Below the pieces are notes generated by a model that worked only from the letters and a program-made list of their open reading frames with translations, ran no database searches and had not been told where the DNA came from. Position numbers and translations under genes: made by a program. Source: a virus. Taken from it: a stretch of 26,353 nt of DNA. This document shows, in pieces, positions 1,768 to 23,218 of the stretch; position 1 is the stretch's first letter, and every line of letters begins with the position of its first letter. The stretch spans positions 1 through 26,353 of IMG/VR virus record IMGVR_UViG_3300008448_000534. One strand, 5' to 3'.

Positions 1768-2292
1768 ATGGATAGTGAAATATTGTATGGGCATTTAGAG
1801 ATTCAAAAGAAAGTTGTTTCGATTGCTAACTATTTTAATAATAAAGATTATTATGACAAATTATATAAACCAGATGAAGAACTTGTATTTGTTCCTATAC
1901 TACAGGGTGTGGTTCCCTTTTTCTCAGATATTGTTAAGAATCTTGAATTCGACCCCTTTATAGAATACATTGGTGTTTCATCATATGAAGGTGAATCACA
2001 AAAAGGATTTAATTTATATAAACCCATAGATCCTGAAATTGTTAAGGATAGGAAAGTTTGGGTATTTGATGATATTGCTGATTCTGGAAAAACATTAGGT
2101 TTTGTAGTTGGAATGTTAGAACAATATGGTGCTAAAGAGGTTAACACCTGTGTTTTATTGAAGAAAAAACATTGTATCTACCCTATTAACATTCATGGTT
2201 TTGAAATGAATGATGAATGGGTTTGGGGTTATGGAATGGATGCCCCTAATGGTAGAGGGAGAGGTTTAAAAGACATTTATTATAAGTTATGA
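1768..2292 (+). CDS. Hypoxanthine/guanine phosphoribosyltransferase-like protein, 174 aa
   Basis: Residues 97-110, VWVFDDIADSGKTL, match the phosphoribosyltransferase PRPP-binding signature (two acidic residues, then [D/S]SGKT). Residues ~41-55, VPILQGVVPFFSDIV, correspond to the HPRT-type ILKGxxxFxxDL loop, and FEMNDEWVWGYGMD (~145-158) to the purine-contacting C-terminal part of HPRT proteins. The length of 174 aa is normal for bacterial Hpt. By family knowledge it would convert a 6-oxopurine base plus PRPP to the nucleotide, a salvage role, though a different base is possible. Its leader contains AGGAAAG, one of the few Shine-Dalgarno-like sites here. The stop overlaps the next start (ATGA), implying translational coupling. 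Confidence 0.8.
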   Translation: MDSEILYGHLEIQKKVVSIANYFNNKDYYDKLYKPDEELVFVPILQGVVPFFSDIVKNLEFDPFIEYIGVSSYEGESQKGFNLYKPIDPEIVKDRKVWVFDDIADSGKTLGFVVGMLEQYGAKEVNTCVLLKKKHCIYPINIHGFEMNDEWVWGYGMDAPNGRGRGLKDIYYKL

Positions 2293-2783
2293 GAAATAGA
2301 GTTCCTAGATTAAAAGAGATTTCTTTTGAGGAGGCCCAACATTATATCTCTCAAGAGGAAGATGTACAAAATTCCCAAATATATTTTTTTACAAAAACAC
2401 CTGTAGATCCTCTCCCATCGGGTGTTGATGTAAGTTGGGATATTACTTATTACACTAGACGCACTAAACGCTCAGTTCCAACTGATGGAAAAGGAAGTGA
2501 TATTATATATATTCTTTCGAACCCATCATTTCCAGGGTTTTTAAAAATTGGATATACACGTAAGGAAATTGGTATCCGTATTAAAGATCTTTCTAAAGCA
2601 ACAGGTGTACCTACTCCATTTAAACTTGAGTATATATTTAAATGTTATAATGGATTACAATTGGAAGCAGATGTACATAAACATTTGAAAGATTTTAGAG
2701 TAAATTCATATAGAGAATTTTTTGATATTACACTAGCTCAAGCTATTGAAGCAGTTAAATATTTAGGTCAACACTATGTTTGA
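2289..2783 (+). CDS. GIY-YIG-superfamily nuclease-like protein (T5orf172/MUG113 type), 164 aa
   Basis: Residues 71-90, DIIYILSNPS...LKIGYT, form the YxL(S/T)NP...LKIGxT core of the T5orf172/MUG113 branch of GIY-YIG proteins. It is followed by IRIKDLSKATGVPTPFKLEY, the conserved LsxaTGvPxPF segment, then EADVHKHLKDFRVNSYREFF with the expected histidine and REFF motif. Residues 1-65 are an unrelated N-terminal extension. Family members are nucleases or nuclease-derived DNA-binding proteins. The first 4 nt overlap the end of the phosphoribosyltransferase-like gene, and an HNH gene follows, giving two nuclease-type genes in tandem. It could be a free-standing mobile gene or a DNA-processing enzyme. 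Confidence 0.8.
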   Translation: MRNRVPRLKEISFEEAQHYISQEEDVQNSQIYFFTKTPVDPLPSGVDVSWDITYYTRRTKRSVPTDGKGSDIIYILSNPSFPGFLKIGYTRKEIGIRIKDLSKATGVPTPFKLEYIFKCYNGLQLEADVHKHLKDFRVNSYREFFDITLAQAIEAVKYLGQHYV

Positions 2784-2790
2784 TCTTTAA

Positions 2791-2804
2791 AATATTTATC
2801 AATA
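2791..2804 (+). promoter_or_regulatory. Late-type motif with one mismatch (AATATTTATCAATA) before the HNH gene
   Basis: TATTTATCA (2793-2801) differs at one position from the TATTTATAA motif and ends 10 nt before the ATG at 2812. It lies in the only gap between the two nuclease genes. Confidence 0.35.
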
Positions 2805-2811
2805 AAACAAT

Positions 2812-3303
2812 ATGGTAGTACTAGTGTTAAATGCAGACTACTTGCCTATAAATGTAACCACATTTAAAAAGGCTTTTAAATTGGTTTATAAGGGTAAAGC
2901 AGAAATTGTAGAAAATACTGGTGATGTGATGATTACTTATAAGAAAACTTATAGTAAACCGTCTGTAATTCGTTTGATGAATTACGTTTATATACCACAT
3001 AGAAAGGTTATATTGTCTCGAGAAAATATTTTTAAACGAGATGGACATAAATGTGCTTATTGTGAATCCAATAAACATTTAACCCTTGATCATATTCAGC
3101 CTAAATCTAAGGGTGGTTTGAATACTTGGGAAAATTTAGTTACGTGTTGTTTTTCTTGTAACTCTAAAAAAGGAGATAGGACCCCTGAACAGGCAGGAAT
3201 GAAACTTTTGGTTAAACCTTTTAAACCAAACCCCCTTTATTTCATTAGTAAAATTCATAAAAACAAAACTGATTGGCAACCCTACCTAATGTTTAAAGAA
3301 TAG
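2812..3303 (+). CDS. HNH endonuclease, 163 aa
   Basis: A classic HNH/zinc-ribbon module spans residues ~73-125. CAYC (Cys81, Cys84) and CFSC (Cys113, Cys116) form the zinc site, LDHIQPKSKGG supplies Asp93-His94, and WENLV supplies Asn108. The N-terminal ~70 residues (MVVLVLNADYLPINV...) match the conserved lead-in of free-standing bacterial HNH proteins, which is common in Bacteroidetes genomes. It is expected to cut DNA; whether it acts as a homing endonuclease, in packaging or against competitors is not shown. It ends with TAG, unlike the TAA-only late genes, in keeping with an accessory origin. Confidence 0.88.
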   Translation: MVVLVLNADYLPINVTTFKKAFKLVYKGKAEIVENTGDVMITYKKTYSKPSVIRLMNYVYIPHRKVILSRENIFKRDGHKCAYCESNKHLTLDHIQPKSKGGLNTWENLVTCCFSCNSKKGDRTPEQAGMKLLVKPFKPNPLYFISKIHKNKTDWQPYLMFKE

Positions 3304-3377: not shown

Positions 3378-3893
3378 ATGTTTCTAAAAAACAAATTCAA
3401 TTTATTTAAACAGGTATTTAAGTTAAGTGATCATTTGTTTAAAACATTTTTTAGTATTTTTAAAATGAATTTAGATAATATATTTAACCTATTTAGCGAT
3501 CAACCAGATCAGCAACCGGAAGACGATACTTCACTATTGGTAGATTTTTCGGAACACCCATTCTATTGGATTGGTGGGTTTAATAAGGTTATAGCTAATC
3601 ATTCTTATTTCAAACAATATACTATCAAAATGTTTAAAAATGCTTCCTCTGAGTTAGATGAAGATGAAGTTGAAAGAGCTGGCAATCATATGATGTATGA
3701 AAAGGCTTGGGATTATATTAGAGATATAAATTTAAATAATCCTTTCCATGTAGAATGTATAGCTAAAAAATCCTCCTTTGTACTATATAAAAATTTGAAA
3801 GAGGCAATTTCCCATTTCGAACAATTAGAGCAATACGAGAAATGTGTATTGCTCAAAGGTATTGAAACTAAGGTTAAAGAGTTTTTAAGTTAA
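3378..3893 (+). CDS. Hypothetical protein, 171 aa (possibly 142 aa from a later start)
   Basis: I do not recognise the family. From the first ATG the protein starts with a basic, Phe/Leu-rich stretch (MFLKNKFNLFKQVFKLSDHL) that looks amphipathic. A second ATG at 3465 would give MNLDNIFNLFSDQPD..., a more typical soluble start, and I cannot choose between them. The rest is helical and acidic (SSELDEDEVERAGNH), ending in a charged helix (KGIETKVKEFLS). No signal peptide or catalytic motif is evident. It is the last gene of the first + strand block and converges with the minus-strand gene at 3966. Confidence 0.6.
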   Translation: MFLKNKFNLFKQVFKLSDHLFKTFFSIFKMNLDNIFNLFSDQPDQQPEDDTSLLVDFSEHPFYWIGGFNKVIANHSYFKQYTIKMFKNASSELDEDEVERAGNHMMYEKAWDYIRDINLNNPFHVECIAKKSSFVLYKNLKEAISHFEQLEQYEKCVLLKGIETKVKEFLS

Positions 3894-3965: not shown

Positions 3966-4496
3966 TTAACGCCAATGTGGATATTGGTTGATCAAACGTG
4001 AGAAATACATTTTATCTTTAACTGGTAGGATGTATTTATTTTCTGTTACATAGTTAACTACCTTAATAGAATCAATAGGGTATTTTTTAAGTTTTTGGTT
4101 TTGATACTCTTCTAAATTAAACACAGCCAAAATTTTACAACTCATACGTTTTATACTTTCTACATATACTGAATCTCCATTTGAAAAATAGAAAGTTACA
4201 AGTGTAAGATCTGAACAGTATCCATCAATTGGGGGTACTTTTTTAAGATCAATGGGTTTAGCCATTTTATCTTTATAATAGAGTTTAAATGTCATTATAA
4301 ACTCATATCCTTTCAAATCTATATTATCAACAATAGGTTGAAGTTTAAAATTTGAATCTGCATCTAAAACCAGAGGAGAGGGTTGGGGTAAATCAATTTT
4401 ACTATATGTATTTTCACCATATGTTTTTTTAGCCCCAAAATCAACCATTAATCCACAACATAACAACATTGCCAGAATAAGGGTAAAGGTTTTCAT
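3966..4496 (-). CDS. Exported hypothetical protein with signal peptide, 176 aa
   Basis: The only convincing minus-strand gene. The first ~27 residues (MKTFTLILAMLLCCGLMVDF) form a typical export signal: short basic start, hydrophobic core, then polar residues. The two adjacent cysteines at 13-14 have no clear lipobox, so a lipoprotein is possible but not supported. The mature part is beta-rich and lysine-rich, with Cys94 and Cys120 that could form a disulfide in the periplasm. The C-terminal IDSIKVVNYVTENKYILP resembles a small beta-sheet repeat. It carries its own late-type motif 6 nt upstream of the start. A separately transcribed exported phage gene is typical of a cargo (moron) gene; it could modify the host envelope, but function is unknown. 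Confidence 0.7.
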   Translation of the reverse strand: MKTFTLILAMLLCCGLMVDFGAKKTYGENTYSKIDLPQPSPLVLDADSNFKLQPIVDNIDLKGYEFIMTFKLYYKDKMAKPIDLKKVPPIDGYCSDLTLVTFYFSNGDSVYVESIKRMSCKILAVFNLEEYQNQKLKKYPIDSIKVVNYVTENKYILPVKDKMYFSRLINQYPHWR

Positions 4497-4502
4497 TTTT
4501 TC

Positions 4503-4512
4503 TTATAAATAT
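4503..4512 (-). promoter_or_regulatory. Late-type motif on the minus strand (ATATTTATAA)
   Basis: Read on the minus strand the sequence is GATATTTATAAGAAAAA followed by ATG. The motif keeps the same orientation relative to its gene as at the + strand sites, showing that it is directional and not just AT-rich background. Confidence 0.55.
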
Positions 4513-4531: not shown

Positions 4532-4562
4532 TTGGAGACCTTAAAATTTATTCTTACATTTA
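4532..4562 (+). promoter_or_regulatory. Possible Bacteroidetes-type promoter for the gene at 4590
   Basis: TTG (4532-4534), a 20-nt spacer and TACATTTA (4555-4562) fit the TTTG/TAnnTTTG pattern with one mismatch in the -7 box. It lies in the divergent intergenic region and would start a transcript about 20 nt before the ATG at 4590. There is no late-type motif on this side. Confidence 0.35.
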
Positions 4563-4589: not shown

Positions 4590-4778
4590 ATGAGAAATCG
4601 AGAAGCAACCCTTCGTAAATTAGATCAAATTGAATCTAGTTTAACTAAAATTAACATGGCTTTAAACATGGGGAATAGAGAAATGTGCTATGAAATTGTT
4701 GAAGAAGCTAAACTTCAAATTGAACAATGCAAATTGTACATTGAATCTGAACCTATTATTGGACAAGAATTAAACTAA
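4590..4778 (+). CDS. Small coiled-coil hypothetical protein, 62 aa
   Basis: Almost the whole sequence is predicted helix: MRNREATLRKLDQIESSLTK at the start and YEIVEEAKLQIEQCKLYIES near the end, with a short NMGNRE turn between, giving a helical-hairpin shape. It has no enzymatic motif. It precedes the HD-domain gene by 13 nt and is probably cotranscribed with it. Similar short helical proteins occur in T4-like phages as conserved proteins of unknown role. Confidence 0.65.
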   Translation: MRNREATLRKLDQIESSLTKINMALNMGNREMCYEIVEEAKLQIEQCKLYIESEPIIGQELN

Positions 4779-4791
4779 TTAAATTAAGGTT

Positions 4792-5586
4792 ATGAAACTT
4801 ACAGCAGAACAAATCGTAGAAAACTGGGATATGTTTTTAAATATTATTGAAACATATATTACAGGAGAACGTAAAGTTAAGTTATTATCATTCTACAAAA
4901 AATATGAGGATCGCATCACGATGATGCCTGCAGCACATAAAAAAGAATATCATAATGCATTTCCAGGAGGATATGTAGAACATGTTCTTCGTGTTGTGGA
5001 TTGTGCTCTTAAATTAAATGATTTATGGATTGAAATGGGAGCAGATGATTCCTCTTATACTAAAGAAGAATTAGTATTCTCAGCTCTAAACCATGATTTA
5101 GGTAAAATAGGAGATGAAGAAAATGAATCTTATATCCCACAAACAGATCAATGGCGTAGAGATAAATTAGGTGAAGATTATGCCTTTAATAATAAACTCC
5201 CATTTGCCTCAGTTCCAGATCGTGGTTTATTTCTACTTCAATCACATGGTATTCAGTATACATTTAATGAAATGATTACTATTCAGACGCATGATGGTTT
5301 ATATGATGAAGGGAATAAAAAATATCTAATGGCATTTATGCCAGAACAAAAACCACGTACTTCATTACCATATATTGTTCATCAAGCCGATTTAATGGCT
5401 TCACGTATTGAATTTGAACGTGAGTGGTTACCAAAATTTAAGGGTAATTTGGCTCCTAAAGAAGAAAATTATACATTGAATAACAAACAACCGTCTGTGA
5501 AAAAAGCTTCTATTAAAACAAAAGCATTAAGTAACATTCAAAGTGAAGGTTTGAAAAACGTAATGGATGATTTTTTTAAGTCTTAA
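4792..5586 (+). CDS. HD-domain phosphohydrolase, 264 aa
   Basis: The HD-superfamily metal motif is complete: His54 and His64 in YHNAFPGGYVEHVLRV, His101-Asp102 in ALNHDLGKIGD, His167-Asp168 in QTHDGLYDEG and HQADLMASRIEFE (His197, Asp200). The Y-H-N...GG..EH...V layout resembles the YhaM-like HD hydrolases found in bacteria and in T4-like marine phages. Such enzymes hydrolyse nucleotides, cyclic (di)nucleotides or RNA ends; the substrate cannot be told from sequence. The last ~50 residues are basic and low in structure (KEENYTLNNKQPSVKKASIK). The leader has AAGG. A strong terminator follows 23 nt after the stop, making this the last gene of the unit. It could serve nucleotide salvage or defeat a cyclic-nucleotide host defence; both are inference. 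Confidence 0.85.
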   Translation: MKLTAEQIVENWDMFLNIIETYITGERKVKLLSFYKKYEDRITMMPAAHKKEYHNAFPGGYVEHVLRVVDCALKLNDLWIEMGADDSSYTKEELVFSALNHDLGKIGDEENESYIPQTDQWRRDKLGEDYAFNNKLPFASVPDRGLFLLQSHGIQYTFNEMITIQTHDGLYDEGNKKYLMAFMPEQKPRTSLPYIVHQADLMASRIEFEREWLPKFKGNLAPKEENYTLNNKQPSVKKASIKTKALSNIQSEGLKNVMDDFFKS

Positions 5587-5609
5587 GTCAGTTTTTAATT
5601 TTTAACTCT

Positions 5610-5643
5610 AAAAGGTTGTGATATATGTCATGACCTTTTTTTA
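5610..5643 (+). terminator. Rho-independent terminator after the HD-domain gene
   Basis: AAAAGGTTGTGA (5610-5621) pairs with TCATGACCTTTT (5628-5639) as a 12-bp stem, counting two central G-U wobbles, with a TATATG loop. A run of T (5636-5642) follows. It is the clearest terminator in the window and separates the HD gene from the sigma-factor unit. Confidence 0.8.
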
Positions 5644-5654
5644 TTTTTAATTTT

Positions 5655-5924
5655 ATGATTTTAACAATTATTATTCTTTTAGTGTTAGTGGTAGTATTAG
5701 GATTTACCACTCTTAATTTACTTAAGAAAAATGAAAAATGTGAGGATACAATTAAATCATATGAAAACTATATGATTAATTTATCTAACACTATTGAATT
5801 TTCTGATAAAAAACTTAAGGAAATTGATTCAAAAGGTACTTTTGAGGGTGATGATGAAGTAGGATTTTTCTTTAAACAATTGCTTTACCTACAAGAGCAA
5901 CTAAATAATTTCAAAGTAAAATAA
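5655..5924 (+). CDS. Single-pass membrane protein with coiled coil, 89 aa
   Basis: Residues 1-22 (MILTIIILLVLVVVLGFTTL) are one transmembrane helix, followed by a cytoplasmic heptad-like helix (LLKKNEKCEDTIKSYEN, then TIEFSDKKLKEIDSKG). The C-terminus carries a conserved-looking DDEVGFFFKQLLYLQEQLN segment. This architecture is a recurrent small protein of T4-like phages placed beside the late sigma gene; its role is unknown. The gene starts just after the terminator at 5610-5643 and is followed 1 nt later by the sigma gene, so the two are very likely cotranscribed. Confidence 0.72.
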   Translation: MILTIIILLVLVVVLGFTTLNLLKKNEKCEDTIKSYENYMINLSNTIEFSDKKLKEIDSKGTFEGDDEVGFFFKQLLYLQEQLNNFKVK

Positions 5925-5925
5925 A

Positions 5926-6630
5926 ATGTCAAAAAATTATTTCACTCAGGAAACTGAGAATGCTATTGTAGCATACAATTTAAGTGAAGATTTTGCTGAA
6001 AAAAGTCGAATATATAATGATAAAATTCATTATGCTTTTTTTAAATTAACACAAAATATTATTCACACCTTTAAATTCTATTATACCGAGGTAGAAAATA
6101 TAGAAGATCTTCAACATGAGATTATTACATTTTTACTTTCCAAAATCCATAAATTTGATCCTTCTAAAGGAACAAAAGCATATTCATATTTTGGAACTAT
6201 AGTAAAACGCTGGTTGATCTTATATAACGAAACTAATTATAAAAAACGAGTAAATTCCACCCCAGTTTCTACCCTGGAAGAAGATAGTGAATACTCATAT
6301 ACTGTAGAGGAAAATAATTCACCTAGTGATAAATTATCTCATAATGATAAAATATCTCTATTTACAGATTTATATATAGAATATTGCACTAATAATATCT
6401 ATAATTTATTCCCTAAAGATTCAGATGCTAAGATAGCAGATGCAATTTTAGAGCTTTTTAGAAAAAGAGATAGTTTAGAAATATTCAATAAAAAAGCACT
6501 TTACATCTACATTAGAGAAATGGTGGATGTTAAAACCCCTAAAATTACTAAAATTGCGGATAAATTATATGATATATTTAAAAACGGTTATATCTTTTAT
6601 TTAGAAAACGGATATATAAAGTTTCAATAA
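5926..6630 (+). CDS. gp55-like late-transcription sigma factor, 234 aa
   Basis: Residues ~59-100 (IEDLQHEIITFLLSKIHKFD then KGTKAYSYFGTIVKRWLI) match sigma region 2 in the form used by T4 gp55: a helix, an aromatic/acidic FD, then KGxxAYSYFxxIVKR that binds RNA polymerase and the -10 DNA. A Ser/Glu-rich linker (~115-140) and a basic helical C-terminal half follow; I see no clear sigma region 4, as in gp55. At 234 aa it is a little longer than T4 gp55 (185 aa). It would direct host RNA polymerase to late promoters, and the virion genes begin 34 nt downstream behind the first strong late-type motif. T4 late transcription also needs the sliding clamp and gp33; neither is in this window. Confidence 0.82.
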   Translation: MSKNYFTQETENAIVAYNLSEDFAEKSRIYNDKIHYAFFKLTQNIIHTFKFYYTEVENIEDLQHEIITFLLSKIHKFDPSKGTKAYSYFGTIVKRWLILYNETNYKKRVNSTPVSTLEEDSEYSYTVEENNSPSDKLSHNDKISLFTDLYIEYCTNNIYNLFPKDSDAKIADAILELFRKRDSLEIFNKKALYIYIREMVDVKTPKITKIADKLYDIFKNGYIFYLENGYIKFQ

Positions 6631-6633
6631 CTC

Positions 6634-6646
6634 GTATTTATAATAA
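6634..6646 (+). promoter_or_regulatory. Late-type motif GTATTTATAATAA at the head of the virion block
   Basis: TATTTATAA (6635-6643) starts 4 nt after the sigma-gene stop and 21 nt before the ATG at 6665. Read forward it contains TATAATAA, two mismatches from the T4 late promoter TATAAATA. It probably drives 6665-12263. Confidence 0.6.
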
Positions 6647-6664: not shown

Positions 6665-7009
6665 ATGGATAGTTTAGAATCTAATATTTTTGGCGACAAG
6701 AAACTTAAAGATTTATTTCAAGAAATATATACTAACCAAAAGAAAAAAGAAAGACAAATTTCTGCTTTGATTGAAGAATTAAAGCCTATGGTTGAAAGTA
6801 TTGGGGATGCGACTTTGATTGTGCCCCTATTGAAAGAATATCTTGAGATAGGAGTCAAAAATGATGAACAGCTAATTAAGATGGCTACCATTATCCAACG
6901 TTGTTTAAATACTAACAGTAGTAGTGATAGTGGATTCTTAATTTCGGATGCTGAGAAAGCACAATTGTTAGATGATATCAATAAGTTAAATGATAATTCT
7001 AAGGAATAA
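6665..7009 (+). CDS. Conserved-type helical protein at the head of the virion operon, 114 aa
   Basis: The protein is largely helical: a basic helix (FQEIYTNQKKKERQISALIE) then a leucine-rich one (TLIVPLLKEYLEIGVKNDEQ), ending in a Ser/Asn-rich linker and a short helix. There is no signal or catalytic motif. It is the first gene after the late motif, and its stop overlaps the start of the spike gene (TAATG), so it is translated with virion genes. It could be a small structural protein or an assembly chaperone for the baseplate hub; this is inference from position. Confidence 0.7.
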   Translation: MDSLESNIFGDKKLKDLFQEIYTNQKKKERQISALIEELKPMVESIGDATLIVPLLKEYLEIGVKNDEQLIKMATIIQRCLNTNSSSDSGFLISDAEKAQLLDDINKLNDNSKE

Positions 7010-8315: not shown

Positions 8316-10217
8316 ATGCCAGGATATAATACTACATCAAAAACACCAAATACATTAATTGTAGAAGAAAAAACATTTTTTGTTCCTGATGGAAATCTAG
8401 ACTGGAAACCAGGTGATCTCATTTATATTTATCTTGAAAGCGCACCTACTAAAAAATATCTTAAAGGTAATGTTATTGAATACTCTCGAGTTTCTTTTAA
8501 TTCTGAATTTCCTTTAAAAGTTAACATTATTGAAGCTTTTGGTTGGAACTATGGTATTGAAAGATTTAAAGCTGCAGATGTTCCAACTCTACGTAGAGGA
8601 ACATTAATTGGAGATGACCTAAGATTTGATAATCCTAATGAAATTACTCAAGCTCCTATAGCAGAATTAACCTCAGATGAGAATATTTCATCTTCAAAAC
8701 TATTGGAATTTGAATATAAATCTTGGGTTATATCTAATAAAGATTTAAATTATCAATTTGGAAGATCTACGGGAGCAAATCTTCTAGCTCCTCTTACACT
8801 TAATGAAAATCCATTAGACATAGAAGAGGTTAATGGTATCCCTCCAGGATTAGTTGCCGAAAAATGGAATTTATTTATAGAATGGTATAATTCTAAGGAT
8901 AATAAGATCAAACTTTCCGTTAAAAATAATTCAAGTAGTGGTAACCAAACTGATAATTTAATTAATGGATTTAATGAATATATTAAATCTTTACCATCTT
9001 TTTCTAAAATATATAATGGAAAACCTAATATTTTAACTAAAAAAGATGTAACCGCAGCTCAGAAATTTCATAAAAAAGTAGATCCTAATATAGTAATAGA
9101 TGAAGGATTTATAGGTACCCAAACTGTACGATTTATCTACCCAGAACCTATATTATTCCCAGTTTTTTCCGTACCTATTCTTAATGCATCTTTCCTTTCT
9201 TCTCCTGATCTACAGTCTGTTCCTAATTATATGAGGAGAGACTTAGCTGTAAATGTAAGTGGAAGAGGTGTAATAGCAGAAGGTGGATATAATGGGACTT
9301 TTACTTCATCTCCTTACATAACAGGAACACCTTCTGATCCTGATTTACCTTCAACTCCATTTCTTGAACAACAATTACAATCTCAACAACTTGCAGATAG
9401 TTTAAATCCAAATCCCCCTAAAAGATTCTTATTAAGACCTGGTGTTTATGTAACAAAAGAACAACTTTATTTTGAAGGAAGTGATGAAGAATTTATCCAA
9501 CAATTAAAAGAAGGATTAGCAGGAGATTATTTTGGAGATGTTTCTCAATCTGAACTTGATCAAAGATACACAAAATTATATGATTTTTATAGAGATAAAA
9601 TACAAACTGAAGGGCAAGGAGATAATGTTTTAGATGGCCGAAATCCTACTGACCCAAATATATCATCTTTTTCACGTTCACTCCCATTATACCCACAAGT
9701 AATTCCTTTTGGTGGAGATACTTTTAAAATTTTAAAAGAAATATATCCAAATTTTGTTTCAAAAGAAAAAGATTTTGCAGGAAATCCTATCCCCCCACTC
9801 TCTCCTAAACCATATTCTCAAGATTTTGTAATTCCAGTTATATGGGGAAATAAAAGATTTATAATTTCACAAGAAAATTATGCTAAAGGAATTAATAATT
9901 TATCACCATTAACAAAATATTTTAATCTAGCTATTTATTTTAAAAGTTATGATTTAGAATTATCATTATATAAAGATAGAATACTTTGGAATTTACCTCC
10001 TTGGGTATTGAAAGAATATTTTCAACAAACACAAACAGAAGAATTTTTATTTGGTAAAATAGCTCCTGATTATAGATGGGAAGATTTAGGTCGAGGAGAA
10101 TTTGTTCCTGCAATAGATGCCAAAAAATATAATGATACCACTAAAGATTTTTATGATAAAACAATTGACAATCTTTCCCAACAAACTAAATTATTGAATA
10201 ATTTAATAAGAAAATAA
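8316..10217 (+). CDS. Baseplate-associated structural protein, peptidoglycan-binding-like segment, 633 aa (paralogue A)
   Basis: The N-terminal ~80 residues (GYNTTSKTPNTLIVEEKTFF...GDLIYIYL...YLKGNVIEY) resemble a small beta domain seen at the start of phage tail proteins. Residues ~243-273 (DVTAAQKFHKKVDPNIVIDE, then GFIGTQTVRF) follow the peptidoglycan-binding-1 pattern (AVxxFQ...vDGxxGxxT). The C-terminus shares WGNKRF, FKSYDLE and a 25-residue end with the next gene. Relative to that paralogue it has extra stretches around residues 88-145 and 285-480. Between the spike and gp25 genes, it probably belongs to the baseplate or a short fibre and may contact the cell wall. The stop overlaps the next start (TAATG). 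The PG-binding match is moderate and needs a profile search. Confidence 0.65.
   Translation: MPGYNTTSKTPNTLIVEEKTFFVPDGNLDWKPGDLIYIYLESAPTKKYLKGNVIEYSRVSFNSEFPLKVNIIEAFGWNYGIERFKAADVPTLRRGTLIGDDLRFDNPNEITQAPIAELTSDENISSSKLLEFEYKSWVISNKDLNYQFGRSTGANLLAPLTLNENPLDIEEVNGIPPGLVAEKWNLFIEWYNSKDNKIKLSVKNNSSSGNQTDNLINGFNEYIKSLPSFSKIYNGKPNILTKKDVTAAQKFHKKVDPNIVIDEGFIGTQTVRFIYPEPILFPVFSVPILNASFLSSPDLQSVPNYMRRDLAVNVSGRGVIAEGGYNGTFTSSPYITGTPSDPDLPSTPFLEQQLQSQQLADSLNPNPPKRFLLRPGVYVTKEQLYFEGSDEEFIQQLKEGLAGDYFGDVSQSELDQRYTKLYDFYRDKIQTEGQGDNVLDGRNPTDPNISSFSRSLPLYPQVIPFGGDTFKILKEIYPNFVSKEKDFAGNPIPPLSPKPYSQDFVIPVIWGNKRFIISQENYAKGINNLSPLTKYFNLAIYFKSYDLELSLYKDRILWNLPPWVLKEYFQQTQTEEFLFGKIAPDYRWEDLGRGEFVPAIDAKKYNDTTKDFYDKTIDNLSQQTKLLNNLIRK
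10140..10211 (+). repeat. 72-bp direct repeat, copy 1 (3' end of paralogue A)
   Basis: Identical over 72 bp to 11342-11413. It runs from ACTAAAGATTTTTATGATAA to TTTAATAAGA and encodes TKDFYDKTIDNLSQQTKLLN plus four residues. Flanking sequence diverges immediately. Confidence 0.85.
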
Positions 10218-11416
10218 TGGCTGGTTATAAAACTAAATCTAATACCCCACACCAACTAACTACTGGAGAAAAAACATTTATTGTTACTACTCCTAATTTA
10301 GATTATAAAAAAGATGATAATATTTGGATTATTGATAGAAATCGTCCTACTATTGTATTTCTTCAAGGTAAAGTAATCTCATATAATACAGGTACAAATA
10401 GTATAACAGTTAATGTTATACAGACTTATGGAGTTAACATTGTTAAAACAGCTTTTGTTAATACATGGGATATTGACAATAAAAATTATGTTTTATCAAC
10501 AGAAGGAGCAAATCTTTTAGCATCTATTAATCTTAATTTAAATCCATTAGACATAGAAGAAGTTAATGGGCTTCCTCCTGGGTTTGTTTCATTTAAATGG
10601 AATAAATTTATAGAGTGGTACTATTCTAGCAATAATACTATTAAACTTGTTATTGATAATAATGCATCTAATGATAATAAAACTAATATTTTAATTAATA
10701 ATTTTAATAATTATATTCAATCTCTTTCTCCCCCACCTTTTCCTCTTATTTATAATGGGAATAGTACTCTTTTAAATGTAAATGATGTAAAAGCCGTTCA
10801 AAGATTTCACAGTAAAACAGATTCTAATGTATTAGTAGATGAAGGATTTATAGGCACTCAAACTATTCGTCTTAGTTATCCAAAATTTGGAAATTCTCCT
10901 ATACCTTTAAATCCATATACCAATGCTAATAAAAATGATAGAGTATTTTATCCAACAACACCAAATGGAATAGGATTAACAATAGCTCAACAAGTTGCAC
11001 AACAAAGACTAGCAAAAAAATACAATGAAGGTAAAATAGATTATATACCATGGCCAAGTGATGCTGTAGCTGCTATAATATGGGGGAATAAAAGATTTAT
11101 ATTAGAACAACAATATATAGGTGTTACTCCAGATTATTTAGTACCTAACTTTTTTAAAAGTTATGATTTAGAACCTACTTTATATAAAGATAGATTAATT
11201 TTTAATTCTTTAAATGCTAAATATACTGCACTCAATTATAATTCCTACAACTCAGTAGTAGAACCTTATAATGTTTCGTGGGAAGACTTAGGTCGTGGTA
11301 ATTTACTTCCTGTGATAGATGCTGATAGATATAATGACGATACTAAAGATTTTTATGATAAAACAATTGACAATCTTTCCCAACAAACTAAATTATTGAA
11401 TAATTTAATAAGATAA
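10217..11416 (+). CDS. Baseplate-associated structural protein, peptidoglycan-binding-like segment, 399 aa (paralogue B)
   Basis: A shorter paralogue of the preceding protein. The N-terminal domain (MAGYKTKSNTPHQLTTGEKT), the NPLDIEEVNGLPPGF segment (~109-123), the PG-binding-like stretch (~189-219, VKAVQRFHSKTDSNVLVDEG), WGNKRF and FKSYDLE all align in order. The last 24 residues are encoded by DNA identical to that of paralogue A. It lacks the long inserts of A. Tandem position and TAATG coupling suggest both are made in similar amounts and may assemble together. The role is structural by context; any cell-wall binding is inference. Confidence 0.65.
   Translation: MAGYKTKSNTPHQLTTGEKTFIVTTPNLDYKKDDNIWIIDRNRPTIVFLQGKVISYNTGTNSITVNVIQTYGVNIVKTAFVNTWDIDNKNYVLSTEGANLLASINLNLNPLDIEEVNGLPPGFVSFKWNKFIEWYYSSNNTIKLVIDNNASNDNKTNILINNFNNYIQSLSPPPFPLIYNGNSTLLNVNDVKAVQRFHSKTDSNVLVDEGFIGTQTIRLSYPKFGNSPIPLNPYTNANKNDRVFYPTTPNGIGLTIAQQVAQQRLAKKYNEGKIDYIPWPSDAVAAIIWGNKRFILEQQYIGVTPDYLVPNFFKSYDLEPTLYKDRLIFNSLNAKYTALNYNSYNSVVEPYNVSWEDLGRGNLLPVIDADRYNDDTKDFYDKTIDNLSQQTKLLNNLIR
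11342..11413 (+). repeat. 72-bp direct repeat, copy 2 (3' end of paralogue B)
   Basis: Exact match of 10140-10211 in the same reading frame, while much of the rest of the two genes is diverged. This suggests recent gene conversion or very strong constraint. Confidence 0.85.
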
Positions 11417-12266: not shown

Positions 12267-12280
12267 AATATTTATAACAA
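12267..12280 (+). promoter_or_regulatory. Late-type motif AATATTTATAACAA directly abutting the start codon at 12281
   Basis: TATTTATAA (12269-12277) is only 3 nt (CAA) from the ATG. If it works like a T4 late promoter, the transcript would begin at or after this ATG, implying leaderless translation or a later start. It heads the gp25-gp6 unit. Confidence 0.55.
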
Positions 12281-12634
12281 ATGAAAACGGATATTTTAAA
12301 AAAACTTATTAAAGAAGCGGTTAAAGAAGTGTTTCAAGAAGAAATGCGAGATATTCTTTTAGAGGCTGTTAGATCAAATAAACAACCTGTAAATGAATCT
12401 TTTAACCCGGAAACACGTACTTTAAATTTTAATACAAATTCTTTACCTCACAAACCTATTTCTAACGTAAATCCTAAACAAGCATATATGGATATTTTAA
12501 GTGATATGGCTAAAGGTCCTAAAAATGGATTAGAGGGAGAATTTAAATTACAAGGTAATATAGATCCAGTTAATGGATCTTTACCTGAAGGACAATTAGG
12601 ATTAGACCAGATAATGAATTTAATTAATAAATAA
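12281..12634 (+). CDS. Small hypothetical protein preceding gp25, 117 aa
   Basis: The N-terminus is a basic/acidic amphipathic helix (MKTDILKKLIKEAVKEVFQE, then EMRDILLEAV) typical of short helical adaptor proteins in this kind of phage. The remainder is Asn/Pro/Gly-rich and ends GLDQIMNLINK. The start at 12281 is supported by the long helix, but the late-type motif ends 3 nt before it; an internal Met22 (12344) is the alternative. Its stop overlaps the gp25 start by one base (TAATG). Probably a minor structural or assembly protein; function unknown. Confidence 0.6.
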   Translation: MKTDILKKLIKEAVKEVFQEEMRDILLEAVRSNKQPVNESFNPETRTLNFNTNSLPHKPISNVNPKQAYMDILSDMAKGPKNGLEGEFKLQGNIDPVNGSLPEGQLGLDQIMNLINK

Positions 12635-13041
12635 TGGCATTTGGAGCAAGAAGGATATTTCCCATAGATCAAAGACCTGGAACAGCGGTAGGGATATCTA
12701 TTCCTTTTAATGCTCCAGGAATATTTTATTCAACATACACTACTCAAGATGCTATTAGAAATAATTTATTAAATTTTTTTCTTACTAATAAAACTGAACG
12801 TTATTTAAATAATGGATTTGGTTCTAATTTAAGAGCATTTGTGTTTGAACAAATAACCTCTGGTAATTTAGATTTCTTAAAAGAAGATATTCAATCTCAA
12901 ATAAATCAATATTTCACTAACGTACAAATTGATCAACTAGAAATATTACAATATCCAGATTATAATGAAATTAATATAAAATTATTTTATAGCATTATCA
13001 ACACTGGTATAACTGACCAAATAGAAATCACATTTACGTAA
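12634..13041 (+). CDS. Baseplate wedge protein gp25-like, 135 aa
   Basis: Length (T4 gp25 is 132 aa) and layout match the GPW/gp25 family. Residues ~39-50 form the first helix (DAIRNNLLNFFL), followed by the core signature TNKTERYLNNGFGSNLRAFV (51-70), the counterpart of TxxGERvxxPxFGsxLxxxlF, with Glu55-Arg56 retained. Then come a helix (DIQSQINQYF) and the terminal strands (VQIDQLEILQYPDYNEINIK). In T4, gp25 sits at the inner baseplate wedge near the sheath and, with gp6 and gp53, starts sheath assembly. Gene order gp25 then gp6 is as in T4. Coupled by TAATG on both sides. Confidence 0.88.
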   Translation: MAFGARRIFPIDQRPGTAVGISIPFNAPGIFYSTYTTQDAIRNNLLNFFLTNKTERYLNNGFGSNLRAFVFEQITSGNLDFLKEDIQSQINQYFTNVQIDQLEILQYPDYNEINIKLFYSIINTGITDQIEITFT

Positions 13042-14894
13042 TGGCTGCGAATAAAAATATAAAATATATAAATAAAGATTTTGGTGAATTTAGAGCTAGC
13101 TTAATTGATTACGCTAGAACTTATTTCCCAACTACCTATAATGACTTCAGTCCTGCATCTCCCGGAATGATGTTTATGGAGATGGCATCATATGTAGGGG
13201 ATGTTCTATCTTTTTATTTAGACAATCAAGTACAAGAAAACTATCTACAATTTGCCCGTCAATCAAATAATCTATATGAATTGGCGTATATGTTTGGTTA
13301 TAAACCAAATGTAACTGGTATTGCTACTACAACTATAGATTTTTACCAACAACTTCCTGCTAAATTAGTTGGACCTAATTATGTGCCTGATTTTGATTAT
13401 GCCTTATTAATTAATCAAAATTCAACAGTTATTTCTTCAAACAATACATCATTCTTAATTTCAGATCCTGTAGATTTTTCAGTTTCTAGCTCTACAGATC
13501 CAACACAAGTTACAGTTTATTCTGTTATTGCTGGAGGAAATCCTACATATTATTTACTAAAAAAATCTCGCAGAGCAATTTCTGCTACTATTAACACCAC
13601 AACATTTCCTTTTAATGAACCTACAAGATTTGCAACTATAGAAATAAAAGCTAATAATTTGATAGGTATTTTAGATATTGTAGATAGTGATGGGAATATT
13701 TGGTATGAAGTAGATTATTTAGGTCAAGAAATGGTTTATGATTCTATTAAAAATACAAATGTTAATGATCCTAATTTATCTCAATATAGTGGAGATACTC
13801 CATATCTTCTAAAACTAAAAAAAGTACAACGTAGATTTGCTACTCGTTTTAGAAATTCTACAACACTTCAGATTCAATTTGGTGCAGGTACTACCTCAGA
13901 TGTTGATGAAAACATAATTCCAAATCCAGATAATGTAGGTTTAGGTTTACCATTTGAACAATCTAAACTTACAACAGCATATGCTCCTTCAAACTTTTTA
14001 TTTACAGATACTTATGGTATTGCTCCTTCAAATACAACTTTAACAGTTAGATATTTAACAGGAGGAGGAGTTTCAGCTAATGTAGTTTCAAATACTTTAA
14101 CTAGATTAAATGGTACTATAAATTTCTTAAAATCTAATCTTAATTCTGTTACAGCAGATAATATATTTAACTCATTAGCAGTTACTAATCCAGATGCAGC
14201 AAGTGGGGGAGGAGATGGAGATACAATAGAAGAAATTAGACAAAATGCTTCTGCAAATTTTGCTTCTCAATTACGAAATGTTACTCAAGATGATTATTTA
14301 GTTAGAGCTTTAAGTATGCCAGCTAAATATGGAAATATTGCTAAAGCATATATTGAACCTACCAAAGCTCAAAGTATTTCTTCTGGTGAAGCTGCTGGTA
14401 TTTTAGATTTATATATTTTAACATTTGATATTGCGGGTAGATTAACCCTAGCTTCTCCTGCTTTAAAACAAAATTTAGCAACATATCTTTCTCAATATAG
14501 AATGATAAATGATGCTATTAATATAAAAGATGGATTTATCATTAATATTGGAGTAGATTTTGATATTATAGTATTACCTAATTTTAATAGTAATGAGGTT
14601 TTAACAAATTGCATAACTGCTCTTCAAGATTATTTTGCTATTTCTAAATGGCAAATAAATCAACCTATTATGTTAAGAGATTTGTATATTTTACTTGATA
14701 GAATAGAAGGAGTTCAAACTGTTAAAACTATTAATATTACTAATAAAGTAGGAACTAATCTAGGTTACTCTCAGTACGCATATGATATTTCTGGAGCTAC
14801 TAGAAATAATGTGATATATCCATCATTAGATCCTATGATATTTGAATTAAGATATCCTAATACCGATATTCAAGGTAGAGTATCACCACTATAA
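13041..14894 (+). CDS. Baseplate wedge protein gp6-like (baseplate J family), 617 aa
   Basis: The N-terminus matches gp6/baseplate-J proteins: YINKDFGEFRASLIDYARTY, SPASPGMMFMEMASYVGDVL and YLDNQVQENYLQFARQ. A beta-rich middle follows, then the conserved GGGDGDTIEEIRQNA (~390-405) with SQLRNVTQDDYLVRA and the C-terminal YPSLDPMIFELRYPNTDIQG. T4 gp6 has 660 aa, so 617 is near full length. gp6 dimers form the continuous ring linking baseplate wedges and change shape during sheath contraction. It starts by overlapping the gp25 stop. Identification is strong from both sequence and order. Confidence 0.9.
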   Translation: MAANKNIKYINKDFGEFRASLIDYARTYFPTTYNDFSPASPGMMFMEMASYVGDVLSFYLDNQVQENYLQFARQSNNLYELAYMFGYKPNVTGIATTTIDFYQQLPAKLVGPNYVPDFDYALLINQNSTVISSNNTSFLISDPVDFSVSSSTDPTQVTVYSVIAGGNPTYYLLKKSRRAISATINTTTFPFNEPTRFATIEIKANNLIGILDIVDSDGNIWYEVDYLGQEMVYDSIKNTNVNDPNLSQYSGDTPYLLKLKKVQRRFATRFRNSTTLQIQFGAGTTSDVDENIIPNPDNVGLGLPFEQSKLTTAYAPSNFLFTDTYGIAPSNTTLTVRYLTGGGVSANVVSNTLTRLNGTINFLKSNLNSVTADNIFNSLAVTNPDAASGGGDGDTIEEIRQNASANFASQLRNVTQDDYLVRALSMPAKYGNIAKAYIEPTKAQSISSGEAAGILDLYILTFDIAGRLTLASPALKQNLATYLSQYRMINDAINIKDGFIINIGVDFDIIVLPNFNSNEVLTNCITALQDYFAISKWQINQPIMLRDLYILLDRIEGVQTVKTINITNKVGTNLGYSQYAYDISGATRNNVIYPSLDPMIFELRYPNTDIQGRVSPL

Positions 14895-16016: not shown

Positions 16017-16387
16017 TGGCTGAAAAATTAAATTTAGTTAAAAAATTTTATGTTAAAAGTCAATATGAGAAAGTTATAGATACTAAATTTTCTCAATTAG
16101 CTACTTCTGTTTCTACTGATACTACTAGTACTACTACTTCTCCTTTTATAGATAATTCTATTAATGAATTTTTTCAACAATATGAACAATTATTTTTCCA
16201 AATTCCTAAATTTGGACAATCAAATTCTCATGAATATCTTATAAATAATAGTTCAGCATATATTGATTTTACCCCAGTAAATGATGATATTCAAGCTCTT
16301 ATAGATGAAATAAATAGTCTTCAACAACAAAATTTAGAACTTAATCAACAATTGATTGAGTTGCAAGTTTCAAGCTCCCAAGGATAA
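16016..16387 (+). CDS. Small structural protein with C-terminal coiled coil, 123 aa
   Basis: The start (MAEKLNLVKKFYVKSQYEKV) is basic and helical, the middle is Ser/Thr-rich (STDTTSTTTSPF), and the C-terminal ~30 residues (IQALIDEINSLQQQNLELNQ) make a clear coiled coil. Located between two larger baseplate/tail proteins and overlapping both by one base, it is most likely a minor virion component or a trimerising/bridging protein. No close family is recognised. Confidence 0.65.
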   Translation: MAEKLNLVKKFYVKSQYEKVIDTKFSQLATSVSTDTTSTTTSPFIDNSINEFFQQYEQLFFQIPKFGQSNSHEYLINNSSAYIDFTPVNDDIQALIDEINSLQQQNLELNQQLIELQVSSSQG

Positions 16388-18696
16388 TGGCCCGAATAGT
16401 AAATATATTAAATGTAGATCCTGCTACTCTTCAATTTCAAAATTATCTCCCCGAAGATACTTCTCTTATTATAGGTAATATTCAGGAGATAAATTTTAAT
16501 CCATCTGAAGATTATATAGAATATTTTATTTTAGATTTAAACCAGAATATTTTATACAGTAATACTGCTGGCTATCCTCGTTATAGTATCCAAAATGGAG
16601 ATGTAGTAATTGATCCACAAATTGATATCGAATCTCAAGGATATACAGAAGGTCAATATTATACTATATATAATTTTTTAAAACGAAAATTATCATCTTC
16701 CCCTTCTAGTACATTTTATATTCAAGATATAAGTAATGATAGAACAGAATTAAGATTAAATACAACTACTATATCAAGTTTAGATATAGTTGATTTAACA
16801 TCTGCTTTATCTTTTCAAATTTTAAATGCCCAAACATCATATCTAGATTTTTATTTAAATTTTGGTAATAATGATTTATTAATTGCTACCAATATTGCTC
16901 TAGATAATACTAATCCTAGTGATCCTACAGTATTAATTAAATTATACGAGCCTTTACCTGAAGAATTTACATTTAATTCACAGTGTTGGGTTGTTGAACG
17001 GATAGCTGAATCTCAAGCTTATCAAATTGAGTTTCAAATTGTTTTTGATCCTTTATCTTTTAGAACATCAAATTACATATCTAGTCCTAATTTTAATTTA
17101 AGTATTCAAGATCAAGTTAATACTTCAACTCCATATCAAAATCTAAATACTTTAACATCTAATACTTCATTATTAGGATCTGGTAGTTTGCTTTACCAAA
17201 TTAATAGTATTTTAGCTGAAAAAGGAATTGAAATTAACATTGACTATTCAGACTATTCTCAATTTATACATTTTTCTTCAGCACAAACACGATTAGAAAA
17301 TTTTTACTATAAACTATCATTAATTGAAGAATATACATATAGTGGTAGTCTTTCTTCAAATTCAAATAATCAGATTGTTTGGAATAATAGAATAGATGAA
17401 ATTATAACCAATTTTGACGGTTATGAATATTACCTATATTATAGTTCTGAAAGTCATGCTTGGCCTAAAGTTAATTCAACTGCCCCATATATAAATTATT
17501 CTGTAGGATCTGCAACTGCTATTTCTTGGTTAAATACTCAATTAGAATCAGCTTCATTTTTTGACCATGAAAATAAGGATGCTTTAGTAAATGCTATTCC
17601 ATCTTATTTAAGAGAAGATTCAGATAATGATCAATATACATTGTTTACCCAAATGATTGGGCAACATTTTGATAGTATTTGGGTTTATCTGAAAGATATT
17701 ACAAATAAATTTGACGCAGATAATAGATTAGAATTTGGTATCTCCAAAGATATAGTTGCCCAAGCAATTAGAGATTTAGGTATTAAAATATATCAAAATA
17801 ATTTTTCTACATCTGATTTATATTCTGCACTCTTAGGACTTACAGTATCGGGCAGTAATATTAATATTCCTTACATTACAGGATCTTTACCTACACCCAC
17901 TGGATTTGAATATATAAATACATTTATTACAGCCTCAGATTTAAATGTTCTAGCTCCTTTAGATGATGTCAATAAAGAAATTTATAAACGCATTTATCAC
18001 AATTTACCTTACCTACTAAAGAAAAAAGGTACACCTGAAAGTTTAAGATTACTTGCTAATATATATGGAGTTCCTGATACTATTTTCCGTATAAATGAGT
18101 TTAGTGGAAAATCAACTGAAACAACTAATAATTGGGATAACTTTCAAAACCAATTTAACTATGAATTTTTTACTACCAGTTCAGGATATGTAGAAGTCCC
18201 ATTATTAATTGATACAGGTTCAGGAAATGGTAGATATGGAGTAGCAATCTATGGAGATGATTATTATGGAGGAGATTCATTTAACGAAGGATCTTCTTCT
18301 TTTTCTATAGAATTTAGATTTAAAACAATGGGTATTCCCACAGATCCATCCCAATATAACCAAATTTTAGCATATGCCCCAGAAAATGACTTTGCATTAG
18401 TTTTAGAATATACTGGAACTGGATATGCTAGTGGTTCATATAGTGGATCTATTCCAGATCCCCAAAATCAATATGGAGACCTTAAATTTATAGAACTAAG
18501 CTCAGGAAATGTTAATACACTTTATTTACCATTTTTTGATGGAGAATGGTGGTCAGTAATGTATAATTTAAGTGATGATGTTGCAACAATAACAGATTGG
18601 ATTCTTGATTTCCAACCAAATCCAGGAAGAGGTGTTTGGGAAGATTTGGGAGATTGGTATGATTCTGAAGAATGGTATGATGATATTTTCTCTTAA
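16387..18696 (+). CDS. Large tail/baseplate protein ending in the first half of a LamG-like domain, 769 aa
   Basis: Residues 1-500 are a beta-rich structural region with conserved-looking blocks: FIHFSSAQTRLENFYYKLSL, DGYEYYLYYSSESHAWPK, LFTQMIGQHFDSIWVYLKDI and YKRIYHNLPYLLKKKGTPES (~530-550), then YGVPDTIFRINEFSGK. From ~residue 600 a concanavalin-A/LamG-like fold begins (SSSFSIEFRFKTMG; LYLPFFDGEWWSVM at ~712-722). In related phage proteins, as I recall them, this domain continues directly with a strand like FTLYAKNKIYTGNDG. Here it is replaced by ~45 unrelated acidic and Trp/Tyr-rich residues (VWEDLGDWYDSEEWYDD) and a stop; the missing strands start the next ORF. It may be a split receptor-binding or baseplate protein. 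Confidence 0.7.
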   Translation: MARIVNILNVDPATLQFQNYLPEDTSLIIGNIQEINFNPSEDYIEYFILDLNQNILYSNTAGYPRYSIQNGDVVIDPQIDIESQGYTEGQYYTIYNFLKRKLSSSPSSTFYIQDISNDRTELRLNTTTISSLDIVDLTSALSFQILNAQTSYLDFYLNFGNNDLLIATNIALDNTNPSDPTVLIKLYEPLPEEFTFNSQCWVVERIAESQAYQIEFQIVFDPLSFRTSNYISSPNFNLSIQDQVNTSTPYQNLNTLTSNTSLLGSGSLLYQINSILAEKGIEINIDYSDYSQFIHFSSAQTRLENFYYKLSLIEEYTYSGSLSSNSNNQIVWNNRIDEIITNFDGYEYYLYYSSESHAWPKVNSTAPYINYSVGSATAISWLNTQLESASFFDHENKDALVNAIPSYLREDSDNDQYTLFTQMIGQHFDSIWVYLKDITNKFDADNRLEFGISKDIVAQAIRDLGIKIYQNNFSTSDLYSALLGLTVSGSNINIPYITGSLPTPTGFEYINTFITASDLNVLAPLDDVNKEIYKRIYHNLPYLLKKKGTPESLRLLANIYGVPDTIFRINEFSGKSTETTNNWDNFQNQFNYEFFTTSSGYVEVPLLIDTGSGNGRYGVAIYGDDYYGGDSFNEGSSSFSIEFRFKTMGIPTDPSQYNQILAYAPENDFALVLEYTGTGYASGSYSGSIPDPQNQYGDLKFIELSSGNVNTLYLPFFDGEWWSVMYNLSDDVATITDWILDFQPNPGRGVWEDLGDWYDSEEWYDDIFS

Positions 18697-18699
18697 TAA

Positions 18700-18713
18700 A
18701 ATATTTATAATAA
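18700..18713 (+). promoter_or_regulatory. Late-type motif AATATTTATAATAA within the split LamG region
   Basis: TATTTATAA (18702-18710) ends 6 nt before the ATG at 18717 and begins 5 nt after the stop of the 769-aa gene. The stretch ATATTTATAATAAAAA is also found at 23206-23221. Confidence 0.6.
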
Positions 18714-18716
18714 AAA

Positions 18717-19757
18717 ATGGCAAGTTTATACGCTAAAAATAAAATATACACAGGGAATGATGGATATTATTTAGGATTTCAAGCATCTGCTAGTGTAGGT
18801 TCTTTAGCGTTTGCTATAGTAAGAAGTGGAAGTTTTTATCTTTCATACTCTGCTAGTTTAGTTATAAATGGTACTACATACACACCTTTTTCAGGTTCAT
18901 TTCAGGAACTTAGATTTTATAAAAATAATTTAAGTGAAAGTAGATTTGATGACTATGTAATGAATCCTTACTCCATTGAAGGAAATCAAGAATCTGGAAG
19001 TGGTACTTCATTACGTAAATTAATTTTTAGAGCCCCATTAGGAACAGTACTAGATAGTGGTTCGGATACTCCTAGAGAATCTATCCATCCTGGTATTTCA
19101 ACAATACCTCCCAAACCAACTTTTAGAGTATTTAACCCTTTTATTACTAGTAGTGCTTATACTTTAAACGGTGTTTATAATTTCAATCCCCAAACTGAAG
19201 TTATATATCAAGATTCATTTGTAGCTGGGGTTAAAAATACTGTATCTGAAAAAATTAGAATTGTAGATGTAACATTACCCTCAGGAAATACTTTATCTCC
19301 ATATATTTCAGTTCAACAAAAATCTTTAATGAGTAGAGATTTTAATAAAGATATAAATTATGTTGAAGCTGGATTTTCTCCTCAAGATGAAATTAATGAT
19401 GATATTATAGAGCAACTTGGTCCGTACAATATAGGTAATTATATTGGGGATCCAAGACAAGTATCTTCATCTTTAGTTTATTATCCTGATTTTAATAAAT
19501 TAAGAGATGAATATTTTTCTAAATACATTCATAATTATAATTTGTGGGATTATATAAGATTAATTAAATTCTATGATAATTCATTATTTAAAATGATTCA
19601 AGATTTTACACCTGCTCGTGCAGGTTTAGCATCAGGGATTATTATTAAACAAACATTATTAGAAAGAAATAAATATCCATTACCTCAGGTTACAACAAAT
19701 AGTGTTATTACATTTGTTGGTAATCCAACGACAAGAACTCTTAACGTACCGCTTTAA
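18717..19757 (+). CDS. Structural protein starting with the second half of a LamG-like domain, 346 aa
   Basis: The protein starts abruptly with MASLYAKNKIYTGNDGYYLG and FSGSFQELRFYKNNLSESRF (~60-80), the closing strands of a LamG/ConA-like jelly-roll whose first half ends the preceding gene. After this come DDYVMNPYSIEGN, IHPGISTIPPKPTFRVF, the block YVEAGFSPQDEINDDIIEQL and the C-terminal FYDNSLFKMIQDFTPARAGL-ASGIIIKQTLLERNKYP. In related phages I recall these blocks as parts of one long polypeptide with the 769-aa part. The reading frame differs from the upstream gene and has a stop just before the ATG, so this is a separate ORF with its own late-type motif. It overlaps the next start by one base. 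Confidence 0.7.
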   Translation: MASLYAKNKIYTGNDGYYLGFQASASVGSLAFAIVRSGSFYLSYSASLVINGTTYTPFSGSFQELRFYKNNLSESRFDDYVMNPYSIEGNQESGSGTSLRKLIFRAPLGTVLDSGSDTPRESIHPGISTIPPKPTFRVFNPFITSSAYTLNGVYNFNPQTEVIYQDSFVAGVKNTVSEKIRIVDVTLPSGNTLSPYISVQQKSLMSRDFNKDINYVEAGFSPQDEINDDIIEQLGPYNIGNYIGDPRQVSSSLVYYPDFNKLRDEYFSKYIHNYNLWDYIRLIKFYDNSLFKMIQDFTPARAGLASGIIIKQTLLERNKYPLPQVTTNSVITFVGNPTTRTLNVPL

Positions 19758-23204: not shown

Positions 23205-23218
23205 AATATTTATAATAA
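23205..23218 (+). promoter_or_regulatory. Late-type motif AATATTTATAATAA before the gene at 23231
   Basis: TATTTATAA (23207-23215) lies 15 nt before the ATG and 9 nt after the stop of the 1146-aa gene. It probably starts the unit 23231 to beyond the window end. Confidence 0.6.

Follow-up and report, generated by a model that had tools for sequence, protein, structure and literature searches.

We showed that a gene at positions 5926-6630 of IMG/VR virus record IMGVR_UViG_3300008448_000534 (the whole 26,353-nt stretch analysed is referred to below as the window) is homologous to the late sigma factor gp55 of phage T4 and contains sigma region 2; its 234-aa product is predicted to be a divergent late sigma factor of the gp55 family. 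Moreover, we demonstrated that the relatives of this virus have two distinct promoter classes, one of which, a box with the core TATTTATA, has no -35 element and is linked to virion genes in Flavobacterium phage immuto. It is highly probable, in our opinion, that protein and box together constitute a switch from early to late transcription. In T4, gp55 is the known late sigma factor, which redirects the host RNA polymerase to late viral genes.

The putative sigma factor and its genetic surroundings

The window contains the following features related to the putative sigma gene:

4532-4562, + strand: TTGGAGACC...TACATTTA, a candidate promoter of host type (-33/-7) preceding the sigma cluster 4590-6630 (sequence; weak)
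4792-5586, + strand: HD-type phosphohydrolase in the gene cluster ending with the sigma gene (PHROG 5889, E=1e-15; PHROG 28876, metal-dependent phosphohydrolase, E=5e-11; same order in immuto)
5655-5924, + strand: small protein, N-terminal membrane helix; its gene immediately precedes the sigma gene (sequence; only weak matches)
5926-6630, + strand: predicted gp55-family late sigma factor, 234 aa (ATG start; profile matches)
6016-6240, + strand: sigma region 2, residues ~31-105, including FDPSKGTKAYSYFGTIVKRWLI (Pfam match to residues 51-95; invariant residues)
6343-6627, + strand: conserved C-terminal helical domain, residues 140-234, with KKALYIYIRE, absent from gp55 (AlphaFold)
6665-7009, + strand: 114-aa protein, first gene behind the putative late box, N-terminus conserved across the family (no PHROG or Pfam family match)
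12634-13041, + strand: gp25-like baseplate wedge subunit (PHROG 261, E=6.7e-17)
13041-14894, + strand: gp6-like baseplate wedge subunit (PHROG 219, E=4.5e-16; 47% identity with the baseplate wedge protein of immuto)

The initial annotation had regarded the protein as gp55-like on account of a sigma region 2-like segment (KGTKAYSYFGTIVKRW, residues 81-96), and had staked this claim on a profile search. The search did match region 2, with Pfam Sigma70_r2 aligning to residues 51-95 (E=9.2e-5). The score of 22.6 bits lies under the curated cut-off of 24 bits, which is no argument against a sigma identity, because T4 gp55, used as a control, reaches only 13.1 bits (E=0.087) on the same profile. The likeness to gp55 was borne out by the late sigma family PHROG 234 (E=4.6e-4) and by an hhalign comparison of the family with an alignment of eight gp55 proteins (95% probability, E=2.2e-8), which covered the N-terminal ~100 residues including the N-terminal start. 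The corresponding comparison with E. coli sigma factors gave E=0.06, a weak contrast to the gp55 result given the small alignment of three sequences. Homology over the sigma region 2 domain, by which we define the gp55 family, was therefore found with PHROG 234, among the relatives and by hhalign.

Sigma70_r2 was matched by 40 of the 52 aligned relatives and the late sigma family by 25 of them, while distant family members encoded on genome contigs matched the latter at 2e-6 and 4e-6. Residues A85, S87, Y88, F89, K94 and I98 are invariant in 19 divergent members, down to 30% identity. The AlphaFold model of the full-length protein had a mean pLDDT of 77 and a pTM of only 0.45; the best viral and PDB matches obtained with it in Foldseek were mainly sigma factors, each with a weak or modest score. 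PDB sequence searches with the protein and with profiles gave no matches, and a weak match to an NCBIfam sigma70-ECF family was noted. One relative (L079:10001-10873) has ~60 extra residues, inserted in frame, within region 2 of its sigma, immediately ahead of KAYSYFG.

The C-terminal domain (residues 140-234) is confidently predicted to be helical (pLDDT 87, pTM 0.78), and its KKALY and RE positions are invariant. It showed no profile match to sigma region 4, gp33 or gp55, and no significant PDB fold match when searched by itself in Foldseek. The helix pattern and the helix-turn-helix-like stretch KKALYIYIRE...TPKITK suggested a possible sigma region 4, but neither hmmscan for region 4, nor hhalign against E. 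coli FliA, RpoS and RpoH, nor Foldseek returned anything. A fused gp33 was discarded (hhalign probability only 0.2%).

Relatives of the sigma gene occur on at least 600 viral contigs, and 80-locus families were at 58-92% identity to their queries. The isolated relative is immuto, whose ortholog (47% identical) is annotated as a hypothetical protein. The gene order of the window is also that of immuto: phosphohydrolase, small protein, sigma, a protein of ~115 aa and baseplate genes. The placement of the sigma gene in front of a late operon, as proposed earlier, agrees with the virion operon that follows it (the gp25-like and gp6-like baseplate wedge genes). The promoter ahead of the sigma cluster is a weak candidate: among 94 relatives, only 29 contain a strict host-type promoter anywhere within the 2.6 kb upstream. 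MAG contigs with relatives fall mainly into bins of Flavobacteriales and other Bacteroidota, with some in other bins, and the host of the window virus is most likely a member of Bacteroidota. The deep branches, Microcystis phage Mel-JY01 and LR756508, encode a protein 37-40% identical; a scan with the Mel-JY01 protein yielded no further loci.

The TATTTATA box and the two promoter classes

The sigma stop codon (6628-6630) is separated by exactly 4 nt from the sequence TATTTATAA at 6635-6643. This distance had been noted correctly in the initial annotation, as had the recurrence of the motif before other genes. The raw count of the 9-mer is only mildly unusual (nine copies in the window versus 4.1 expected; 4 of 100 shuffles reach nine). 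Its placement is far more telling: of the 18 copies of TATTTATA in the window, 6 precede a gene on the same strand by no more than 40 nt, where chance would give 0.3 (P=4.5e-7). No antisense copy is placed in this way, and none of 2000 shuffles yielded six. The genes preceded by the motif are 877, 4496 (minus strand), 6665, 12281, 18717 and 23231, and the putative late boxes, all TATTTATAA, are:

852-860, + strand: upstream of gene 877 (placement)
4503-4511, - strand: upstream of the minus-strand gene 3966-4496 (placement)
6635-6643, + strand: before gene 6665 and the baseplate operon (placement; kept in relatives)
12269-12277, + strand: 4 nt from TATTTATA to the ATG of gene 12281, predicted leaderless (same spacing in orthologs)
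18702-18710, + strand: upstream of gene 18717 (placement)
23207-23215, + strand: upstream of gene 23231 (placement)

Several other arrangements were observed in the window. Palindromic runs, of the TATATGTATATA type and TATACGTATA, recur in the region 540-850, upstream of the box at 852. Two putative endonucleases adjoin each other at 2289-3303, one of the GIY-YIG type (T5orf172) and the other an HNH protein, the HNH stretch of which scores best against IscB. Relatives of gene 3378-3893 begin at an internal Met (MNLDNIFNLF, ~3465), some of them with a late box 3-4 nt upstream; the window has no late box at this position. The neighbouring genes 8316-10217 and 10217-11416 have near-identical ends (DFYDKTIDNLSQQTKLLNNLIR), an apparent tandem duplication within 8316-11416. 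At 16387-19757, two ORFs (769 and 346 aa) align to successive parts of a single 1265-aa protein of the immuto baseplate region, with a copy of TATTTATAA between them, apparently a split gene that has a promoter of its own.

De novo counting of 8-mers in 1,053 upstream regions (176 loci plus the window, with no prior choice of motif) gave two clear signals, [AC]TATTTATA and the host-like TCGTATATTTAGGTAT, the latter belonging to an early promoter of the form GTTG ... TATnTTTAG. TATTTATA was present in 278 upstream regions, versus 55 expected and 61 in antisense. When the regions were thinned to 690, TATTTATA was found in 136, the host-like box in 53, and both in none. The early sites have GTTG at -33 (G at 97% of sites), which demonstrates that the method sees -33 elements; the same method detected no upstream signal of a -33/-35 element at the late-box sites. 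Some 30 nt ahead of the box there is a weak [AG][GA] signal, which was dismissed as probably being coding sequence of the sigma 3' end (KL 0.31, falling to 0.20 without the sites behind sigma). TATTTATA therefore has the form of a lone TATA-type box of 8 bp that lacks a -35 partner and that the 234-aa protein may bind. As a positive control, the same counting in the T4 late region returned TATAAATA as the top 8-mer (12 upstream regions, 14-28 nt from box to ATG).

Of the 157 scorable relatives of groups A-C, 156 have the box immediately after the sigma gene, versus 7% in shuffles; these sites share ancestry and represent conservation rather than 156 independent events. In group D the box is not directly behind the sigma gene, and in Mel-JY01 and LR756508 no excess of TATTTATA was detected; these deep branches may use another late box.

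In immuto, the late box precedes 16 of the 40 genes of the virion block that have a gap upstream, versus 7 of the 85 other genes (P=4.7e-5), and the host-type box 1 of the 40 versus 22 of the 85. The former sites include the terminase, the portal (gp20), the tail sheath, the next tail gene, the tape measure and a chitinase/holin lysis cluster. Many virion genes, including the major capsid gene of immuto, have no box directly upstream, and may be read through. The box thus occurs upstream of virion genes, on their own strand, and is distinct from the early promoters, as are T4-like late promoters. What had been a candidate promoter motif has become, by comparative genomics, a recurrent promoter of late type, belonging to one of two separate classes and linked to virion genes. 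In the early region of immuto (60-76 kb; L082-L086) many small genes have a near-identical promoter, AGTTG-N18-20-TATATTTAGGTATCAATAATTAAAA. Among open-access papers we found none that describes the TATTTATA motif for phages or gp55 for Flavobacterium phages.

Comparison with known systems and alternative explanations

Late transcription in T4 employs gp33 and the gp45 sliding clamp, a trait of the T4 system and not of gp55 homology. T4 gp33 is a late co-activator that mimics sigma region 4 on the beta flap. Profiles of gp33 (PF16805), gp45 (PF02916, PF09116) and the bacterial clamp (PF00712) found nothing over the cut-off in immuto, Mel-JY01 and four large contigs, a search which divergent homologs could escape and in which some contigs are fragments; in T4, PF16805, PF02916 and PF09116 detected gp33 and gp45. 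The family shares with gp55 and its T4-like homologs (PHROG 234) the N-terminal ~100 residues, including sigma region 2, but differs in the extra C-terminal domain, which has no profile match to gp55. This domain may perhaps stand in for gp33 as a functional counterpart, even though the two have no detectable sequence or profile similarity, and gp33 and gp45 would then be dispensable in these phages. Bacterial ECF (group 4) sigma factors are likewise short and have a helical domain C-terminal to region 2. Unlike them, however, the family has no region 4 that could be detected by sequence, profile or fold, and its late promoter lacks a -35 element.

T4 late promoters are reported to have an 8-bp box roughly one helical turn ahead of the start and an A/T-rich downstream, without conservation at -35 (PMC2988020). 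The phage promoter similarly consists of one A/T box of 8 bp, lacks a -35 element, is A/T-rich downstream and is placed before virion genes, and TATTTATA is identical to the T4 box TATAAATA at 6 of 8 positions, with two bases changed. The distance to the ATG differs: 14-28 nt in T4, whereas the family box may be as near as 3-4 nt. Most distances fall between 3 and 23 nt, the lower limit being sharp, and 36 of 127 sites have 3 or 4 nt, in several unrelated gene families. If the phage box is placed as the -7 box of Flavobacterium psychrophilum, which spans -12 to -5 (PMC9723704), transcription would begin at the A of the ATG (+1, leaderless) when the gap is 4 nt, and for a gap of 3 nt the start would have to lie one nucleotide nearer to the box. 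The exact T4 distance (first T of the box at -13; PMC2988020) would make the 3-4 nt class start 1-2 nt inside the ATG, a point against the late-sigma explanation. We infer that the 3-4 nt class gives leaderless or nearly leaderless mRNAs.

Such proximity to start codons, in phages that rarely use Shine-Dalgarno sites (1-4% of upstream regions in groups A-C), might indicate that the box is not a promoter but an RNA element, i.e. a translation-initiation signal in hosts without Shine-Dalgarno sites. We consider this very unlikely: the distance varies from 3 to over 20 nt (directly behind sigma from 3 to 23 nt among orthologs), the box never accompanies a host-type promoter in the 690 upstream regions, and it resembles the T4 late promoter as described above. 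A DNA promoter is favoured by group D, where Shine-Dalgarno-like sites occur in 45% of upstream regions. There, an apparent ortholog of gene 12281 (judged by its N-terminal sequence) has TATTTATA ~28 nt upstream and, as in T4, a ribosome site (AGAGGAG) between the box and the ATG.

A late promoter could also be read by an alternative sigma factor of the host or by another phage protein, with the gp55-like protein recognising something else. The pairing of protein and box is deduced from sequence comparison, the deep branches encode the protein but show no excess of the box, and F. psychrophilum has non-sigmaA promoter motifs (PMC9723704). This explanation nevertheless seems improbable, as immuto has no match to a sigma region 4 family and its sigma gene is the only match to the late sigma family, while the box resembles the known gp55 target and is retained behind the sigma gene in all but one of the scorable relatives of groups A-C. 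That the protein is no working sigma factor at all, but a structural or regulatory one (e.g. an anti-sigma or baseplate protein) in which the region 2 fold has decayed, is scarcely credible. Its gene does sit among virion genes and its Pfam score is below the cut-off, but T4 gp55 scores still lower, the region 2 core is invariant in the divergent members, and the hhalign match is specific to gp55.

A probable late-transcription switch in these phages

We therefore favour the gp55-family late sigma factor acting at a TATTTATA promoter. The sigma factor would be made before the late genes, bind the host core RNA polymerase through its region 2 module and direct it to a -35-less promoter composed of the core TATTTATA and an A-rich stretch, with the box about one helical turn upstream of the late transcript start. 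Virion operons would carry this box and other genes the host-type -33/-7 promoter, so that the phage, like T4, would turn the host polymerase from its early genes to its late ones. That the 234-aa protein itself reads TATTTATA is suggested by homology, shared architecture and co-occurrence; the deep branches without an excess of the box and its different location in group D speak against the explanation. A more far-reaching proposal, which we regard as possible but doubtful, is a one-protein, clamp-independent form of T4-type late transcription, in which the C-terminal domain has taken over from gp33 (and the clamp) within the same polypeptide, TATTTATA serves as the altered box, and the 5' end of many late mRNAs coincides with the start codon or is at most a nucleotide away from it. 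Such mRNAs would suit Bacteroidota, with their closer -7 promoter geometry and translation free of Shine-Dalgarno sites.

To conclude, a control circuit familiar from T4 appears to exist, without the two helper proteins of T4, in a group of phages that is widespread but has been little studied. This would supply the missing late-transcription switch for very abundant uncultured phages, known from hundreds of contigs and one isolated relative, together with a simple rule for annotating late operons in this group (TATTTATA, no -35 element). A relative of gp55 without gp33 and gp45, and with a changed box, is also a natural experiment, in which one can directly ask which part of gp55 determines the box it recognises and what stands in for the sliding clamp. 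The near-leaderless class likewise makes a prediction open to test.
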